DNA of 64,000 nucleotides from Nitrososphaerota archaeon (GTDB lineage: Archaea; Thermoproteota; Nitrososphaeria; Nitrososphaerales; JACPRH01): NCBI GenBank assembly GCA_023379805.1, contig JAMCPI010000014.1, positions 186,001 through 250,000 of the forward strand, given 5' to 3'. The number at the start of each line of letters is the position of its first letter. Position 1 is the first letter of the stretch. The notes under the pieces are model-generated. The model did no database searches. It was not told the origin of the DNA and worked only from the letters and a program-made list of their open reading frames with translations. The translations under genes and the position numbers were made by a program. Positions 2,787-63,341 of this stretch are shown here, one piece after another.

Positions 2787-4286
<1,500 letters not shown>

Positions 4287-4294
4287 TCTTGGAA

Positions 4295-14147: not shown

Positions 14148-15482
14148 ATGAGTATTGGCGATGATGAGATTAGTGTCCCGAGTCTAGATCGGCAGATCGG
14201 GATCGAGAGTTACTCCACCAAGTTCAAAGGTGTAGGTGGCAGGATTCGCAGCTCCCGCAGCGATTTCTTGGTGGAGGAGGTTCTTGACAGCGCGACAAGA
14301 TCCAAGATAGTTGAGAAGCCGAGTCCAGTTAATCGTTACCCTGTTTACCGGTTGATGAAGGAGGGTGTTGACACGCTGCATGCGTTGCAGCAGGTGGAGA
14401 AGCGGCTCGGGTGGCAGGCTACTTACCTTGGTTTGAAGGATGCTGATGCCAAGACTGTTCAGTACATTTCTCCTAAGGGGTTGAGAGGTGGTGATGCTCC
14501 TTTGAGTGTTGAGGTTTCAGCTAAGGTTGCTTTGGAGCTTGAGGGTTATCTTGATGGGTTGTTGACTAGGCGGAGCTTATCTGGGAACAGGTTCACTATC
14601 CGAGTTGTTGATGTTCAATGCGGCGCTGATGTTGTTGAGGCTGCTGGTGAGGAGTTGAAGCGGGCTGTTGAGGAGATGACTGTTCCGAACTTTTTCGGTT
14701 ACCAGCGGTTCGGGGCTAAGAGGCCTGTTAATCATTTGGTTGGTCGGGAGCTGCTTCAAGGAAGATTAGAGGAGGCGGTGATTACCTTCTTGACGTATCC
14801 GTCGATAGGTGAAGATGCGGAGAAGCTTGAGTTGAGGCAGGAGATGCGCGACCCTGCGCGTTACCGGTCTCTTCTAGAGCATGTTGACAGGAGAATGGAT
14901 ATTGAGAGACGAATGATGGAGGTGTTGATCAGTCACCCGGGTGACTGGATCGGGGCGTTGAGATCTGTTCCGCTTACCGTAAGGAGGCTCTTCATCAACT
15001 CGTATCAGGCGTTTCTCTTCAACCGCGTGGTGTCGGAGGCGTTGAAGGAGAAGGGGGTTGCTTTGACCGAGGCTGATGAGATCAGCGATGTTTACGGCAT
15101 AATCGGCTCGGACGAGAATCCATCTGGGATTAGGAGGGGGCGTAAGAATTTGGTTGAGAAGCCGGGTGAAAGGGTTCTGCCGCTGATCCAGATGGTTGGA
15201 TACGCTTACCGTGCTGGTGGAGGCCGCTTTGACCGCATCACCCAAAAAGTTCTCGCTGAGGAAGAAGTCACTCCAAGAATGTTCTACATCAAGGAGACGC
15301 CTGAGATAAGCATGGAGGGAGGCTTCAGAACCCCATCACTCCTCGTAGATGAGCTTGAAGTAAAAACGGAGCCTGAGAAGTCAGCCTGCCTTTTACGGTT
15401 CAATCTAGCAAAAGGCGCCTACGCAACAGTTCTACTCCGCGAACTAATCAAACCTTCCGATCCAGTATCAGCAGGCTTCTAA
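14148..15482 (+). CDS. truD: tRNA pseudouridine synthase D
   Basis: Makes pseudouridine 13 in tRNA. The 444-aa protein has the family motif LGLKDADAKT with catalytic Asp98, a following SGNRFTIRV strand, and the family-specific TRUD insertion domain in the middle. It is co-transcribed with fen1 (8-nt gap). Base composition changes sharply near 15240: the first 1,090 nt are G/T-rich, the last 240 nt are C/A-rich, with no break in the reading frame. Confidence 0.93.
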   Translation: MSIGDDEISVPSLDRQIGIESYSTKFKGVGGRIRSSRSDFLVEEVLDSATRSKIVEKPSPVNRYPVYRLMKEGVDTLHALQQVEKRLGWQATYLGLKDADAKTVQYISPKGLRGGDAPLSVEVSAKVALELEGYLDGLLTRRSLSGNRFTIRVVDVQCGADVVEAAGEELKRAVEEMTVPNFFGYQRFGAKRPVNHLVGRELLQGRLEEAVITFLTYPSIGEDAEKLELRQEMRDPARYRSLLEHVDRRMDIERRMMEVLISHPGDWIGALRSVPLTVRRLFINSYQAFLFNRVVSEALKEKGVALTEADEISDVYGIIGSDENPSGIRRGRKNLVEKPGERVLPLIQMVGYAYRAGGGRFDRITQKVLAEEEVTPRMFYIKETPEISMEGGFRTPSLLVDELEVKTEPEKSACLLRFNLAKGAYATVLLRELIKPSDPVSAGF

Positions 15483-15577
15483 TCTAATATAATCTAATCG
15501 AACCTAACCTAGGCTGGGTTAGTCTACTCTTACTGGTTAGAAAATTGGTTAGCCTTTAGGTTGGTTAGTTAGTTGGT
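15483..15577. repeat. TTAG/GGTTA-rich convergent spacer
   Basis: The 95-bp gap between the convergent truD and eL15 genes consists largely of imperfect TCTAA, CCTAACC, GGTTAG and TTGGTTAG units. There is no gene. The same word family recurs at 18641-18686 and near 20660-20675, also between convergent genes. It may hold termination signals for both strands. Confidence 0.6.
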
Positions 15578-41892: not shown

Positions 41893-42822
41893 ATGTACTT
41901 TCTGAATGATATTGAGCGGAAGACGCTTCTCGGCAGGATTTTGCCTAGTGCGAGAAAGGTCGGGGTCTCCGAGGAGCTGCGGGGGTGGAACTGGTCAGAT
42001 TCGCCCCTTAAACCTCTTTATCCTGATGAGAGGATACCGAACTTTCTCGTGGGCTCACAGTACTGCCCGACGGCTAGAGATGTCTTCGTCTCAAAGGTGC
42101 GCGGAGTGAGGGGGGAGGAGAACAACCATGTGCGGACGGGAAGCCTACTTCACAAAGCAGTTCAAAACGTAGTACTCTCATACGTAGATGAAGTGGGAGA
42201 GCAGAGCTTTGAAGCATGGTGGGAGAAGGAAGGTTCACGAACCTTCAGAAGCAGTAACAACGGTCAGGAGGCGCAGGCAAATCAAGGCTGGGTTAAGAGC
42301 TTCGTAGAGACTATCTGGTCTCAGACCAGCTCCGAGTGCAAAGGCGCGCTTATGGCAAGGAGATCCTCTCAACCCTATGCGAGCGAGCATGACGTACATG
42401 CATCCGCGCTCCCCTTTCTCGTTGAGCATAAGGTGGATGGCCGCTTGCTCGGCCTGTCAGGTCTTTTGAGTGTGGACTGCTACGATTATCTTCACGGCAT
42501 AATATTCGATCTAAAGTACCTTAGACCTAGAAGCACTGCGGAGCCGTGGCGTAGGCTTTACTGCGCTGGCTACGCAATCGCGCTTGAAAGCGTGTACGAA
42601 ATACCTATGGATTTAGGCTGCGTAGTCTACATATCGCAGATCAACGGTCAGCCAACAGTTTCGAGAGACCTCTTCTTCATCGGCGATGACTTGAGAGGCT
42701 GGTGGCTTGAAGAGAGAGATAAGAAGCTTGAGATCGTAGCACAGAAAAAAGATCCAGGCATCCCAAACAGATGCTACGACACCTGTCTCTACACCAAATA
42801 CTGTCTGGGTGAGCAAAAATAG
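41893..42822 (+). CDS. csa1: Csa1/Cas4-like adaptation nuclease
   Basis: A 309-aa Cas4-family protein of the long Csa1 type. It has an N-terminal Cys in SQYCPTARDVFV, a RecB-nuclease core (LLHKAVQNVV, FLVEHKVDGRLLGLSGLLSVDC, IIFDLKYL) and a C-terminal Fe-S cluster triad CYDTCLYTKYC. Csa1 is usually found with type I-A modules and works with Cas1, Cas2 and Cas4 in spacer trimming. Its TAG stop overlaps the proposed ATA start of cas1. Confidence 0.88.
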   Translation: MYFLNDIERKTLLGRILPSARKVGVSEELRGWNWSDSPLKPLYPDERIPNFLVGSQYCPTARDVFVSKVRGVRGEENNHVRTGSLLHKAVQNVVLSYVDEVGEQSFEAWWEKEGSRTFRSSNNGQEAQANQGWVKSFVETIWSQTSSECKGALMARRSSQPYASEHDVHASALPFLVEHKVDGRLLGLSGLLSVDCYDYLHGIIFDLKYLRPRSTAEPWRRLYCAGYAIALESVYEIPMDLGCVVYISQINGQPTVSRDLFFIGDDLRGWWLEERDKKLEIVAQKKDPGIPNRCYDTCLYTKYCLGEQK

Positions 42823-43844
42823 AGCGACTTGTAATCGACGGCTACGGAAAGGTTCTCGCAAAACGCGGCGAGCAGATAGTGGTACGCGAAGAAGGCAAAG
42901 TCCTTTATGCTGAGCTACCTGAGAATCTCAGACAGGTAATCATCACAGGCCACGGCTCAATAAGCACCGATGCCTTGGTGCTTCTTTCAACCTACGGCGT
43001 TGACCTCATCCTGATAGACTGGAAGGGAAAGGTAGTGTCCAGATTATCCGCTCCGGAGATGCGTACAGTATTTACAAGAAGAGAACAATACATCGCATAC
43101 AAAGACAGTAGAAGCGGTTACCTAGCTAAGGCCTTCGTCTTAGCGAAGATGAAGAACCAGAAGGCGCTACTAGGCACCTTCGCGAAGAACAGGAAAGAAA
43201 CTGACTCCGCTGCCGCTGAAAGAATAACTCACTTCAAAAACGTGATAGAGGATTTAATCACCCGGCTTGAAGCATTTGAGCCAGCAAGCATCGACACATC
43301 GCGTCCCTCAATACTTGGCTTTGAAGGCTCGGCCTCCTCCACCTACTGGGACGGAATAAAGGAGGTTGTGCCGGAGGAACTAAAGTTCGATGAGAGAAGC
43401 GGACGCGGAGCCCTCGACCCGTTCAACTCAATGCTAAACTACGGTTACGGTGTACTGGAAGGTGAAACTTGGCGAGCAGTACATTACGCAGGTCTGGATC
43501 CCTACGGCGGCTTTCTTCACGCAGACCGACCAGGCAAACCAAGCATGGTCCTTGACCTTATGGAGGAGTTTCGACAGCAGCTAGTAGACCGAACCGTAAT
43601 TTCGCTTGCCTCAAAGAAAGTTGTGACCTCGAAGGACTTCCAGATTGAAGAAGGCTTCTGCAGACTCTCGGACGAGGCTCGCCGCGCACTCCTTAAGGAG
43701 CTGCTCGGAAAGATGGAGGAGTACCTAGCCGTCGGCGAAGAAAAGATGAGGTGGTGCGACCTAATTCTCTCAAAGTCAAGAGATGTAGCGCAATACCTCA
43801 GAGGAGAAGTGAACAACTACAACGGATTCTACCTCAGATGGTGA
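42819..43844 (+). CDS. cas1: CRISPR integrase Cas1 with proposed ATA start
   Basis: Integrates new spacers next to the leader. The protein has a C-terminal helical domain with the metal site around PSILGFEGSASSTYW, VHYAGLDPYGGFLHADRPGKPS (catalytic His) and VLDLMEEFRQ. The first canonical start is GTG at 42879, but that removes the conserved N-terminal strands LVIDGYGKVLAKRGEQIVV, which are encoded in frame just upstream. The only candidate before them is ATA (42819-42821), overlapping the csa1 stop as ATAG, with GGTGA 6 nt earlier. With this start it is 341 aa. Confidence 0.85.
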   Translation: MERLVIDGYGKVLAKRGEQIVVREEGKVLYAELPENLRQVIITGHGSISTDALVLLSTYGVDLILIDWKGKVVSRLSAPEMRTVFTRREQYIAYKDSRSGYLAKAFVLAKMKNQKALLGTFAKNRKETDSAAAERITHFKNVIEDLITRLEAFEPASIDTSRPSILGFEGSASSTYWDGIKEVVPEELKFDERSGRGALDPFNSMLNYGYGVLEGETWRAVHYAGLDPYGGFLHADRPGKPSMVLDLMEEFRQQLVDRTVISLASKKVVTSKDFQIEEGFCRLSDEARRALLKELLGKMEEYLAVGEEKMRWCDLILSKSRDVAQYLRGEVNNYNGFYLRW

Positions 43845-43845
43845 C

Positions 43846-44427
43846 ATCTACTACCTAAACGCCAGCGACCTAACCCAATACTACTATTGCAAAAGAAAGG
43901 TCTACTTCCTAAAGGTCGTAGGCGTGCCCCCCATTACGAGGAGAAAGATGAATCTAGGAAAGGAGGAGCAGGCAAAAGAATCTAAACGACTCCTCGAACG
44001 AAACGATTTGTTCGGCGTCCCACGCGAAGAGGTCTCAGAAATAGTTAGCCGCAAAACCGTATCAAGCAGCAAACTAAAGCTCAAAGGAATAATTGATATC
44101 CTCTTACTCCTTCGAGACAGCAGCGGCGCAGTCCCGGTGGAAATAAAATACACAGACAACCCCGAAGCAAACCTATCCAGAAAGAAGCAGCTCTTCGCAT
44201 ACATACTCCTCTGCGAAGAAGCCCTAAACCTCAAATGCCCCTACGGCATCCTATACTTCCCAGACCAAAACCGCTCAATAAGACTCACAGCAACAGAAGG
44301 CGACAAAACCTCAGTCCTCAAAGACATCGAAGAAATAAGTAGAATGTTCAAGACCGAAACACTCCCAAGAAAAGCAGCAGAATGGAAATGCAACTACTGC
44401 GAAGTAAAACGATACTGCTGGACATAA
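43846..44427 (+). CDS. cas4: CRISPR nuclease Cas4, start codon unclear
   Basis: Fe-S RecB-like nuclease that trims prespacers. The core has LKLKGIIDILLLL and VPVEIKYTDN, and the C-terminal cysteines CNYCEVKRYC. The first GTG (43924) leaves out the conserved N-terminal segment LTQYYYCKRKVYFLKVVG with the fourth cluster cysteine, which is encoded in frame upstream back to 43813. No ATG, GTG or TTG precedes it; ATC 43846 and ACG 43822 are candidates, or a frameshift from cas1. I list 43846 provisionally. Strongly C/A-rich codons. Confidence 0.8.
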   Translation: MYYLNASDLTQYYYCKRKVYFLKVVGVPPITRRKMNLGKEEQAKESKRLLERNDLFGVPREEVSEIVSRKTVSSSKLKLKGIIDILLLLRDSSGAVPVEIKYTDNPEANLSRKKQLFAYILLCEEALNLKCPYGILYFPDQNRSIRLTATEGDKTSVLKDIEEISRMFKTETLPRKAAEWKCNYCEVKRYCWT

Positions 44428-60556: not shown

Positions 60557-61153
60557 TCAAGGGTCTTGAAGATACCAAGATGCAAAGGCATCCAAAGCTC
60601 TCGCCCTGTGCGAGAGCTGGCTTTTCTCCTCAATCCCCATCTCGGCAAACGTCATGTCGTAACCTGTCGGGATAAAGATAGGGTCGAAGCCGAAGCCGCG
60701 CTGGCCACGCATCTCATCGGCGATACGCCCCTTAACAACCCCGAGGAAGGTCTTCACCTTCAGCCTAAGATCATCATCCGTATACGCAATGGCCGATCTG
60801 AACTCCGCATTACGACTTTTTGTGCCTGTGAGGAGCCTTAGGATACCGTCGCAACCCAGCGTCCGGTTAACATAAGCCGAGTATGGTCCGGGAAAACCGT
60901 TCAGCGACTCTACGAAGAGACCTGCGTCCTCTACAATAAGAGGGCCACGCTCTCTGATATGCGTATCACGCAGTGAGGCTACCGCAATCTCAGTTAAATC
61001 ATCCGACTGAATCTCCAAGGCCTTCGCTGAAGAAATCATCTCCAGCTGAATGCCAGTGTCGAACAGGATTGCTTGAGCCTCCTTGAATTTGTGGAGGTTT
61101 CCAGTGGCGAACTTGACGACCCGGCTCCTGCTACCGGCGAGACTACTAGTCAA
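60557..61153 (-). CDS. rdgB: non-canonical purine NTP pyrophosphatase (Ham1/RdgB)
   Basis: Hydrolyses ITP, XTP and dITP to keep deaminated bases out of nucleic acids. The 198-aa protein has the start motif KFATGNLHKFKEA, a central VEDAGLFVESLNGFPGPYSAY, RGQRGFGFDPIFIP and a C-terminal EEKSQLSHRARALDA. The TTG at 61153 overlaps the bud32 stop and follows GGAGGT by 12 nt; a TTG at 61183 is the alternative. Often linked to KEOPS genes in archaea. Confidence 0.92.
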   Translation of the reverse strand: MTSSLAGSRSRVVKFATGNLHKFKEAQAILFDTGIQLEMISSAKALEIQSDDLTEIAVASLRDTHIRERGPLIVEDAGLFVESLNGFPGPYSAYVNRTLGCDGILRLLTGTKSRNAEFRSAIAYTDDDLRLKVKTFLGVVKGRIADEMRGQRGFGFDPIFIPTGYDMTFAEMGIEEKSQLSHRARALDAFASWYLQDP

Positions 61154-61796
61154 CCTGCTTCTTGTACCTCCCTCTGCGCTCAACCTCTTTAAGTTGCTTT
61201 AACACTTTCTCAGCCTCAGCCTCGCCCATAACTTCTCTGTAACCCTCCAAAACAGCCTGCGAAACTGTTCCTGCAACCCTGTGATGCGCACTCTCAGCCA
61301 ACGTATCTAGAAGATGCAGATCAACAGCCCGATCCTCCAATCGCGTCGAGTAGAAGGCGAGACCGAAATCAATCAAGGCGAGACGATCCCCGACAGCAAT
61401 GAAATTGGATGTGGTCAGGTCGCCGTGGATGACTCTTCCAAGGTGGAGACGCGCAGCATAGCGGCCGACTTCACGACACCACCGCTCAACAACTTCCGCG
61501 CCGTCGCAGTCAATAATCTCTTTCAGCCTGCGGCCGTGAAGAAACTGCATCACAATCTCGCCTCGCTCCTGATCCACGAAGTAAATCAGCGGAGTAGCCA
61601 CACCAAGTCTACGCGCCTCAGCGATGAACGAAGCCTCGTGAAGCGTCCTCAACCTACGAATCTTCGAATCTAAAGCAGGATGTCGGTACTGCTTCGGCTC
61701 CCTGATCTTGAACACAGCTTCTTGACCGAACCATTCCCCGAGATAGACCGAGGCCTCTGCGCCGCGTGTCAGAAGCTTCATCTTCATCTTCTCCAA
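61146..61796 (-). CDS. bud32: KEOPS kinase/ATPase Bud32
   Basis: RIO-like small kinase that drives KEOPS turnover. The 216-aa protein has a GAEASVYLGEW nucleotide loop, VIHGDLTTSNFI catalytic loop and LIDFGLAFYS (DFG). It ends RRGRYKKQVD, the usual basic tail. It overlaps kae1 upstream by 13 nt and rdgB downstream by 8 nt, so all three are translationally coupled. Not fused to Kae1. Confidence 0.93.
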   Translation of the reverse strand: MEKMKMKLLTRGAEASVYLGEWFGQEAVFKIREPKQYRHPALDSKIRRLRTLHEASFIAEARRLGVATPLIYFVDQERGEIVMQFLHGRRLKEIIDCDGAEVVERWCREVGRYAARLHLGRVIHGDLTTSNFIAVGDRLALIDFGLAFYSTRLEDRAVDLHLLDTLAESAHHRVAGTVSQAVLEGYREVMGEAEAEKVLKQLKEVERRGRYKKQVD

Positions 61797-62833
61797 GCTA
61801 TATCCACCTGGTCAAGCCGCCAAGACTGCTTCACCGAACTCTTCTCAACATCTACTCGGACACCGGCCTCGAAGGCTTGGAGACCGTTCCACGCAATTTG
61901 GGCTCCGCAGTCCCCGCTATACTCCCGGGGGACAGCTAGAAGCTTAGCGCCGTGAACACCGCATATCTGGCTAAGCATCTCTCGAAGCCGCAGGTTCGCA
62001 GCCACTCCCCCGGCTATGAGAACCTCCTTCTTCTCAGTAAAGGCTAAGGCGCGCTCAACAACCTCCGCCAGCATAGCGAAACCGGTCTCCTGCAGCGAGA
62101 AGCACACATCCTCCAAACTTCTTCCCCCTGCAAGCAGCCGCTTAGAAGCTGTAAGCAACCCGGAGAAGGAGACGTCATTGCCTTTCACGGTGTAGGGAAG
62201 ATCCAGAAACACATTCGACTTGTTTGAAAGTGCTTCAAACTCTCGGCCGAAGGGTGAAGCGTAACCAGCAGCTCTGCCGAACTGATCAATCATCTGCCCA
62301 ATCGTCAAATCCAAGGTTTCACCAAACACTCTCCAACGCCGCGCCGTGAAAGCGGTAATGACAGTGTGGCCGCCTGAAACGAGGAGAACAAGCGGATCTG
62401 AAGCCCCGGTTAGCATCGCAGCCAACTCGATGTGAGCAACCGCGTGGTTAACAGGTATCAACGGCTTCTTGTAGTAGGCGCTGACAGATCTGGCGACAAC
62501 CGCTCCGACTCTGAGACAGGGCCCAAGCCCCGGCCCCTGCGAAAAGGCCACCGCGTCAACATCCTCAATCTTCACCGCGGCCTCCTTCAACGCCTTAGAC
62601 AGCACTGGAGCAGCTACCTGAGCGTGGTGCCTCGAAGCTTCTCGTGGATGAATGCCTTCCCCCTTCTCAGGCCGGTAGATATCACGGACATCGGAGAGAA
62701 TCTTAGGTGTACCGCCTCTGGTAGATACGATTGAGACGCCGAAGGTGTGAGCAGTCGATTCAACGCCTAGAGAGACGGAGCCGTGTTTAGAGCTTTCTGG
62801 TTCTCCGGTATAGGCTCCCGAGGATCTCGATAT
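61784..62833 (-). CDS. kae1: KEOPS catalytic subunit Kae1, proposed ATA start
   Basis: Transfers threonylcarbamoyl to A37 of tRNA. The protein has LGVESTAHTFGV at the N-terminus, the metal-binding HAVAHIE, VSGGHTVI and a C-terminal SGDCGAQIAWNG. The first canonical start codon in frame is GTG at 62605, which loses about 60 conserved residues. The upstream frame opens right after an in-frame TGA and holds no ATG, GTG or TTG before LGVESTAH. The ATA at 62831-62833 lies 6 nt after GGAGGTGA, a perfect ribosome site. This gives 349 aa. It overlaps the preceding gene by 47 nt. Confidence 0.88.
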   Translation of the reverse strand: MSRSSGAYTGEPESSKHGSVSLGVESTAHTFGVSIVSTRGGTPKILSDVRDIYRPEKGEGIHPREASRHHAQVAAPVLSKALKEAAVKIEDVDAVAFSQGPGLGPCLRVGAVVARSVSAYYKKPLIPVNHAVAHIELAAMLTGASDPLVLLVSGGHTVITAFTARRWRVFGETLDLTIGQMIDQFGRAAGYASPFGREFEALSNKSNVFLDLPYTVKGNDVSFSGLLTASKRLLAGGRSLEDVCFSLQETGFAMLAEVVERALAFTEKKEVLIAGGVAANLRLREMLSQICGVHGAKLLAVPREYSGDCGAQIAWNGLQAFEAGVRVDVEKSSVKQSWRLDQVDIAWRR

Positions 62834-63341
62834 TCGGCTTCACCTCCGCAGAGTAATCGTTAAACTGAGCATCTTCAAACTCAACCAGTTCTTCACCGTT
62901 AGAACTGGTGATCGTGATTTTGGCCGCATGGAGCGTTCCCTGGCTCTTCTCGACATCGTTACTGTTCAGTTCAGGAATATTGATTATAGCAGCGTAGCCT
63001 GAAACCGTCTCACCGTCTCTGAAGACAATACTGTATAGGGTGTGCCAGCTCTTCTTCGCGGGGCGCCGCCTCGCCTCGGTTCTCCAAACAGCATCAAACC
63101 GTCGGTGAAGAAGAGTACGAATCACCTCCTTCAACAACCTCATCTCAACGACCCGTTTCGGATGAAAATCCGGTTCAGAAGCAGCTCGTCGGAGAAGCCG
63201 ACCCCAATCCGCGTTCAAAGGCTCAGAAGCTTGTGAGGCAGGTACAATCCCTCTTCTAAGCTCTTCAATCAGCAAATCCCTAACGCTGACAACTGCCCTC
63301 TGGCCTACAGACTGACCCTGACCGCGACGACGAACAGCCAA
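62787..63341 (-). CDS. unrecognised basic protein upstream of kae1
   Basis: A 184-aa basic protein with no family I can name. It has an Arg-rich N-terminus (MAVRRRGQG), helices rich in Leu/Arg in the middle (RVVEMRLLKEVIRTLLHRRF), and a beta-rich second half (TLHAAKITITSSNGEELVEF). No signal peptide, cysteine pair or catalytic motif is seen. The kae1 ribosome site and ATA codon lie inside its last 16 codons, so it is tightly coupled to KEOPS. An RNA- or ribosome-linked role is a guess from context. Confidence 0.65.
   Translation of the reverse strand: MAVRRRGQGQSVGQRAVVSVRDLLIEELRRGIVPASQASEPLNADWGRLLRRAASEPDFHPKRVVEMRLLKEVIRTLLHRRFDAVWRTEARRRPAKKSWHTLYSIVFRDGETVSGYAAIINIPELNSNDVEKSQGTLHAAKITITSSNGEELVEFEDAQFNDYSAEVKPNIEILGSLYRRTRKL

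Follow-up and report, generated by a model that had tools for sequence, protein, structure and literature searches.

Probable near-cognate start codons in one archaeal genus of the Nitrososphaeria, with a candidate AUA start for kae1

In bacteria, translation can start at near-cognate codons such as AUU, CUG and AUA, as in the infC and pcnB genes of E. coli, both of which start at AUU. A survey of start-codon switches among prokaryotes found those to CUG or AUU to be extremely rare, with two from AUG to CUG and one from AUG to AUU out of 61,358, and AUA unmentioned (PMC5622118). In yeast, non-AUG initiation increases when t6A is lost, and reporters then show mis-initiation at CUG as well (PMC4717488). 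Here we describe a kae1 gene with no canonical start codon ahead of its conserved core, and with an AUA behind a strong ribosome-binding site that we consider, from the sequence comparisons given below, to be on balance the probable start.

The kae1 gene and its missing start codon

The window is the whole stretch of 64,000 nucleotides analysed, from the genome of an uncultured Nitrososphaeria archaeon (2.34 Mb in 17 contigs), and its relevant features are collected in Table 1. The product of kae1 is a full-length Kae1/TsaD, the threonylcarbamoyltransferase of KEOPS, above the curated cut-off of its family (443.3 bits against TIGR03722, cut-off 375; 244.9 bits against PF00814, cut-off 24.8, E = 1.5e-72). 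The three motifs of the family (LG[IV]ESTAH, NHxxAH and LVSGGH) are all in the translation, as LGVESTAH, NHAVAH and LVSGGH, and the genome has a single copy of the gene. The kinase gene downstream of it we take to be Bud32, from gene order.

Table 1. Positions of the features discussed in the text, numbered along the window
Feature	Position	Strand	Basis
kae1 frame, from the proposed ATA to the stop	61784..62833	minus	TIGR03722, PF00814; single copy
Proposed AUA start of kae1	62831..62833	minus	no prior ATG/GTG/TTG; conservation in the genus; GGTGA-N6 geometry
Shine-Dalgarno of kae1, GGAGGTGA	62840..62847	minus	pairs with the 16S 3' end; holds the in-frame TGA 62842-62840
Upstream gene overlapping the kae1 leader in another frame	62787..63341	minus	neighbour conserved across Nitrososphaeria
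Kinase gene in the Bud32 position beside kae1	61146..61811	minus	kinase-like Pfam matches; separate KEOPS subunit
16S rRNA gene	2788..4287	minus	3' end defines the anti-Shine-Dalgarno
cas1: GGTGA (42808-42812), six bases, ATA (42819-42821)	42808..42821	plus	starts of relatives align; PF01867
cas4, conserved N-terminus without ATG/GTG/TTG	43813..44427	plus	PF01930; first GTG 37 codons in

The in-frame TGA bounds the kae1 frame upstream, on the minus strand; from 62839 the frame is open as far as a stop at 61784, with the conserved core starting at the CTA 62770-62768 that encodes the L of LGVESTAH (CTA GGC GTT). As the preliminary description of this DNA had pointed out, there is no ATG, GTG or TTG in frame between that TGA and LGVESTAH, and the earliest canonical codon is the GTG 62605, which lies within the TsaD domain, 78 codons along the open frame. 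The same description had proposed a perfect ribosome site followed by ATA, and this holds as well: GGAGGTGA is followed by AGCCGA (6 nt) and then by ATA, and it is a perfect 8-nt Shine-Dalgarno because the 3' end of the 16S rRNA (window ca. 2788, minus strand) reads GGATCACCTCCTTA. A genome-wide search for GGAGGTGAN6ATA gave one hit, and so did that for a reversed control pattern.

Both the gap and the GGAGGTGA-N6-ATA recur in another species of the genus (L002/L031), 91% identical, which excludes a sequencing error as the cause of the missing start. The sole canonical codon in the leader of L002 is a TTG that is itself the Leu of LGVEST, and among the AUN-type near-cognates of AUG, ATA alone is common to the leaders of both species, at the best spacing from GGTGA. 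In three other members of the same family (L003-L005), the 16 codons before LG hold no local start either, but a TTG stands one codon past the position of the ATA. A local start is absent in all five family members, with a TTG in the overlap with the upstream gene in three of them. This TTG, 12 nt from GGAGG and so within the spacing range at other starts, is probably the start in L003-L005. The degraded Shine-Dalgarno of L005 (GGAAGTAA) is a point against the AUA reading. A shorter Kae1 in a related genome had been named in advance as a finding that would speak against AUA; none with a canonical start was seen within the family, where the relatives have their TTG one codon downstream. Farther relatives with the same neighbour have an ATG, GTG or TTG from a few to ca. 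12 codons before LG, and two members of other families (L007, L011) have longer Kae1 N-termini, with ATG. The comparison of L002 to L005 dates the lack of a local start far back in the family, and makes the lack of the TTG a feature of this genus alone. The loss of the TTG would fit a change from CTT or ATT to ATC before GAG/GAA in the overlapping gene.

We rejected the idea that kae1 belongs to a class of genes prone to missing starts, as only one (L057) of 108 kae1 records, some of them duplicates, lacked a start outside this genus. The L057 gene (ca. 2,940-3,000; NC_groundwater_720, another Thaumarchaeota assembly) has GAGGTGG..CTG as a candidate.

Other candidate near-cognate starts and genome-wide counts

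In all, we found no canonical start before the conserved N-terminus in kae1, cas1, atpD, nfeD and a nucleotidyltransferase gene. The geometry of kae1 had been reported to recur at cas1, and the case has become stronger, since the ATA of cas1 aligns with a TTG in one relative (L178) and a GTG in another (L179). The match to PF01867 runs from residue 6 of the open frame, and the ATA overlaps the stop of csa1 (TAG 42820-42822) as ATAG, with the closeness to the upstream stop expected of a termination-reinitiation pair. There is thus a good case, from these alignments, that cas1 starts at AUA. In atpD, which encodes the D subunit of the ATP synthase, GGTGA-N6-CTG is present in both species of the genus and aligned with the ATG, GTG or TTG of at least 10 relatives; PF01813 begins at residue 17 and the first canonical start is residue 31, 14 residues later. 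Judged by this alignment, atpD probably starts at CUG in both species. A CTG also stands at the start of the signal peptide of nfeD in five genomes of three families, and the codon of the nucleotidyltransferase gene is ATT in this genome and either ATC or CTG in that of the sister species; the CTG of atpD and nfeD and this ATT share the GGTGA-N6 geometry of the ATA cases. Close to cas1, cas4 has ACA/ACG where its relatives have ATG, with the ATC 43846-43848 as another candidate.

Along similar lines, CTG behind GGAGG is apparently the start of two genes of contractile-injection type (L144:13313-16039 and L145:11087-12331; Baseplate_J-like, Pvc16_N). A pilin-like gene (RKAISPILATIVLIAITIAGG; L149:8135-8635, minus) has no ATG, GTG or TTG before its hydrophobic segment and no clear near-cognate; either a frameshift or an unusual start may account for it.

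Codons behind a Shine-Dalgarno match of at least 6 nt at normal spacing were counted over the first 40 codons of the open frames in a sample of 864 kb. TTG (25 against 8.6 expected) and ATG (38 against 15) were in excess; neither ATA (8 against 8.9) nor CTG (7 against 10) was enriched, so that near-cognate starts are rare and AUA is not a rule. The genome-wide ATA enrichment that the preliminary description had looked to is thus absent, and we rejected AUA-specific initiation across the genome. With the strongest motif only there was a slight excess of ATA (4 against 0.7), two of the four being overlapping matches in one transposase gene. Besides, eight open frames in 1264 kb were bounded by GGTGA and had their first canonical start at least 12 codons in. 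In four of these, against 0.5 expected, the codon exactly six bases behind the motif was ATA (twice), ATT or CTG, and at the two neighbouring codon positions there were no such codons. The corresponding p is 8e-4 for this post hoc codon set and 0.015 for the seven near-cognates, the former being optimistic because two of the four cases had already been picked in the preliminary description and the codon set was chosen afterwards. These counts cover 864-1264 kb of the 2.34 Mb genome, and in one of the scans the counts at a distance of six bases behind GGTGA were left out, having zero background by construction (the motif puts the TGA in frame).

The same loose scan also yielded candidate non-canonical starts in two control genomes (G013, G010), and the CTG start of nfeD extends beyond the family. 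The data thus point to several near-cognate starts at low frequency in the genus, and the controls do not support their being unique to it. The suggestion that AUA initiation is regular in this organism stands as far as the parallel case of cas1 goes, and falls on the codon counts and on the presence of CTG and ATT beside ATA. What remains is a wider claim as to the codons, several near-cognates instead of AUA alone, and a narrower one as to how often they are used.

Inspection of the initiator tRNA and initiation-factor genes had also been proposed. An aIF1 gene is present; the initiator tRNA, and this is a point against the AUA reading, was not found among the tRNA loci of the genome, the two GGGCTCATAA matches considered for it being no tRNAs. 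Introns are apparent in many of the tRNA loci (L123-L135), some possibly outside the anticodon loop, and the two CAU tRNAs (L127, L133) look intron-bearing.

Two protein genes of this genome carry inserts. In the aEF-2 gene (L300; G000:C12, ca. 390,600, plus) an insert of ca. 31 nt, with a stop or frameshift, lies between DKNRIR and N-FGVIAHVDHGK. It was found at the same site in eight of the genomes examined (L300, L301, L302, L303, L304, L307, L308 and L311) and is absent in L305, L310, L312 and L313. Its flanks form a bulge-helix-bulge with compensatory central helices (CAGG/CCTG vs TTCG/CGAA), so that the insert resembles a pre-mRNA intron of the tRNA-splicing type. A known case of such an intron in archaea is cbf5 (PMC2738675); a literature search for an intron in EF-2 mRNA found nothing. 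A gene of the IF-2B family (PF01008; L174, ca. 14,871-15,500, minus; G000:C10, ca. 54.9-55.5 kb) has a 30-nt in-frame insert with a TGA. Removing the insert restores LTHC-NAGALATVGYG, and its fold is a hairpin that holds a relaxed bulge-helix-bulge.

Readings of the kae1 leader

From three direct observations, namely the absence of canonical starts, the conservation in two species and the homologous start positions of cas1 and atpD, we infer that translation of kae1 in this genus starts at the AUA 62833-62831, a reading to which we give somewhat more credence than doubt. The GGAGGTGA, within 60 bases of the end of the gene before kae1, would place the 30S subunit six bases before the AUA, which the initiator tRNA would accept as methionine, the near-cognate being tolerated thanks to the strong and well-spaced anchor. 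The product would then have a tail of ca. 21 unconserved residues ahead of the LGVESTAH core, and the AUA would be one case of a low-frequency habit (CUG, AUA, AUU; several of the ca. 1,000 open frames sampled).

A kae1 started at the ATA would overlap the upstream gene by 47 nt. That gene, for which Pfam and NCBIfam searches gave no match, ends with EVKPNIEILGSLYRRTRKL and the stop TAA 62789-62787, and GGAGGTGA..ATA doubles as its codons GAG GTG AAG CCG AAT ATC. The motif thus has another reason to exist and is no proof alone. GGAGGT is found at the equivalent place in several relatives with a locally started kae1. In favour of the AUA, the third positions of the upstream codons GAG, GTG, AAT and ATC inside the motif are unchanged, with CCG and the next GAG changed. 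As for the leader itself, selection on an N-terminal tail was looked for as support for an upstream start and was absent: its 23 codons show 8 nonsynonymous and no synonymous changes between the two species. In the overlap part, which comes to 4 synonymous and 2 nonsynonymous changes when read in the upstream frame, this frame explains the pattern by our reading of the counts; in the six leader codons past the upstream stop there are 3 nonsynonymous changes and no synonymous ones. The leader would then be either an unconstrained tail or untranslated, and this lack of protein-level selection is the main reason why our confidence in the AUA is only moderate.

Reinitiation and frameshifting are both compatible with such a leader. 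In the former, the ribosome would end the upstream gene at its TAA and restart a few codons on, close to LGVEST, on a non-canonical codon, which would be GTC in this genus and either CTG or ATT in genus g2. The resulting Kae1 would be of normal length and lack the tail. The tight coupling of archaeal gene pairs at short distance is established (PMC10666635). The upstream stop keeps its place, 16 bases before the LG codon, throughout the five family members, the constraint on the Kae1 protein begins only at LG, and in genus g2 a CTG stands one base past the stop. However, no candidate codon is common to the five, and there is no Shine-Dalgarno ahead of the GTC, which is not known as a near-cognate that works well. 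We regard reinitiation as unlikely, though it is the alternative to be taken most seriously. In the latter, ribosomes would shift by +1 shortly before the upstream gene ends, giving a fusion of the upstream protein with Kae1, so that kae1 needs no start of its own. A +1 frameshift would suit the kae1 frame, which is +1 relative to the upstream one, and the CTC TAA/TAG identical in the five family members. It appears quite improbable, as the two are separate genes outside the family, with kae1 having its own start, and as slippage from CTC to TCT, in contrast to that at the prfB site of bacteria, involves a mismatch.

A start in another exon farther upstream, spliced on by way of a bulge-helix-bulge, might be imagined in a genome with such inserts in protein genes (aEF-2, IF-2B-like). 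It is hard to reconcile with a leader of constant length in five species, filled by the conserved coding end of the upstream gene, and we think it very improbable; a strict splice-motif scan gave one weak candidate at kae1 and is uninformative, having missed both known inserts. The missing start is the sole point in favour of a decayed or misassembled kae1, which we reject as scarcely credible. The gene is single-copy, with intact motifs and well over the family cut-off, the second genome is in the same state, and the 98 synonymous against 23 nonsynonymous codon changes in its core between the two species indicate strong purifying selection.

Comparison with known systems

Gene finders commonly take only ATG, GTG and TTG, and would truncate essential proteins, Kae1 and the ATPase D subunit among them, in this lineage. 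With the genes described here, near-cognate initiation in archaea can be tested on a set of named cases that are anchored by homology. Moreover, an AUA start of kae1 would link start-codon choice to the enzyme whose product, t6A, affects start stringency in yeast. As in the yeast system, Kae1 belongs to a pathway the loss of which increases non-AUG initiation (PMC4717488); unlike there, t6A control of kae1 here is a conjecture. Because t6A is made by Kae1, one can conceive of a feedback loop: t6A from Kae1/KEOPS would hold the initiator tRNA to AUG and the AUA would act as a sensor, low t6A allowing more near-cognate initiation and hence more Kae1. This idea, drawn from the analogy, is a long shot; if true, the other near-cognate genes of the genus would be a t6A-responsive set.

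The tightly packed unidirectional genes resemble the archaeal pairs coupled by termination and reinitiation (PMC10666635), with the -4 ATAG overlap of csa1 and cas1 analogous to ATGA, but the overlap at kae1 would be 47 nt with an internal Shine-Dalgarno, instead of a short -4 or -1; how near the start of kae1 lies to the upstream stop depends on which codon is used. As in the surveyed switches, homologous starts differ between close species, although that survey depends on annotation, which would miss these genes (PMC5622118). The bacterial near-cognates are similar in kind, each a codon one base from AUG, read by the initiator tRNA behind a Shine-Dalgarno and with low intrinsic efficiency. 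Here, in contrast, AUA or CUG would serve several unrelated genes of one archaeal genus, atpD and probably kae1 among them.
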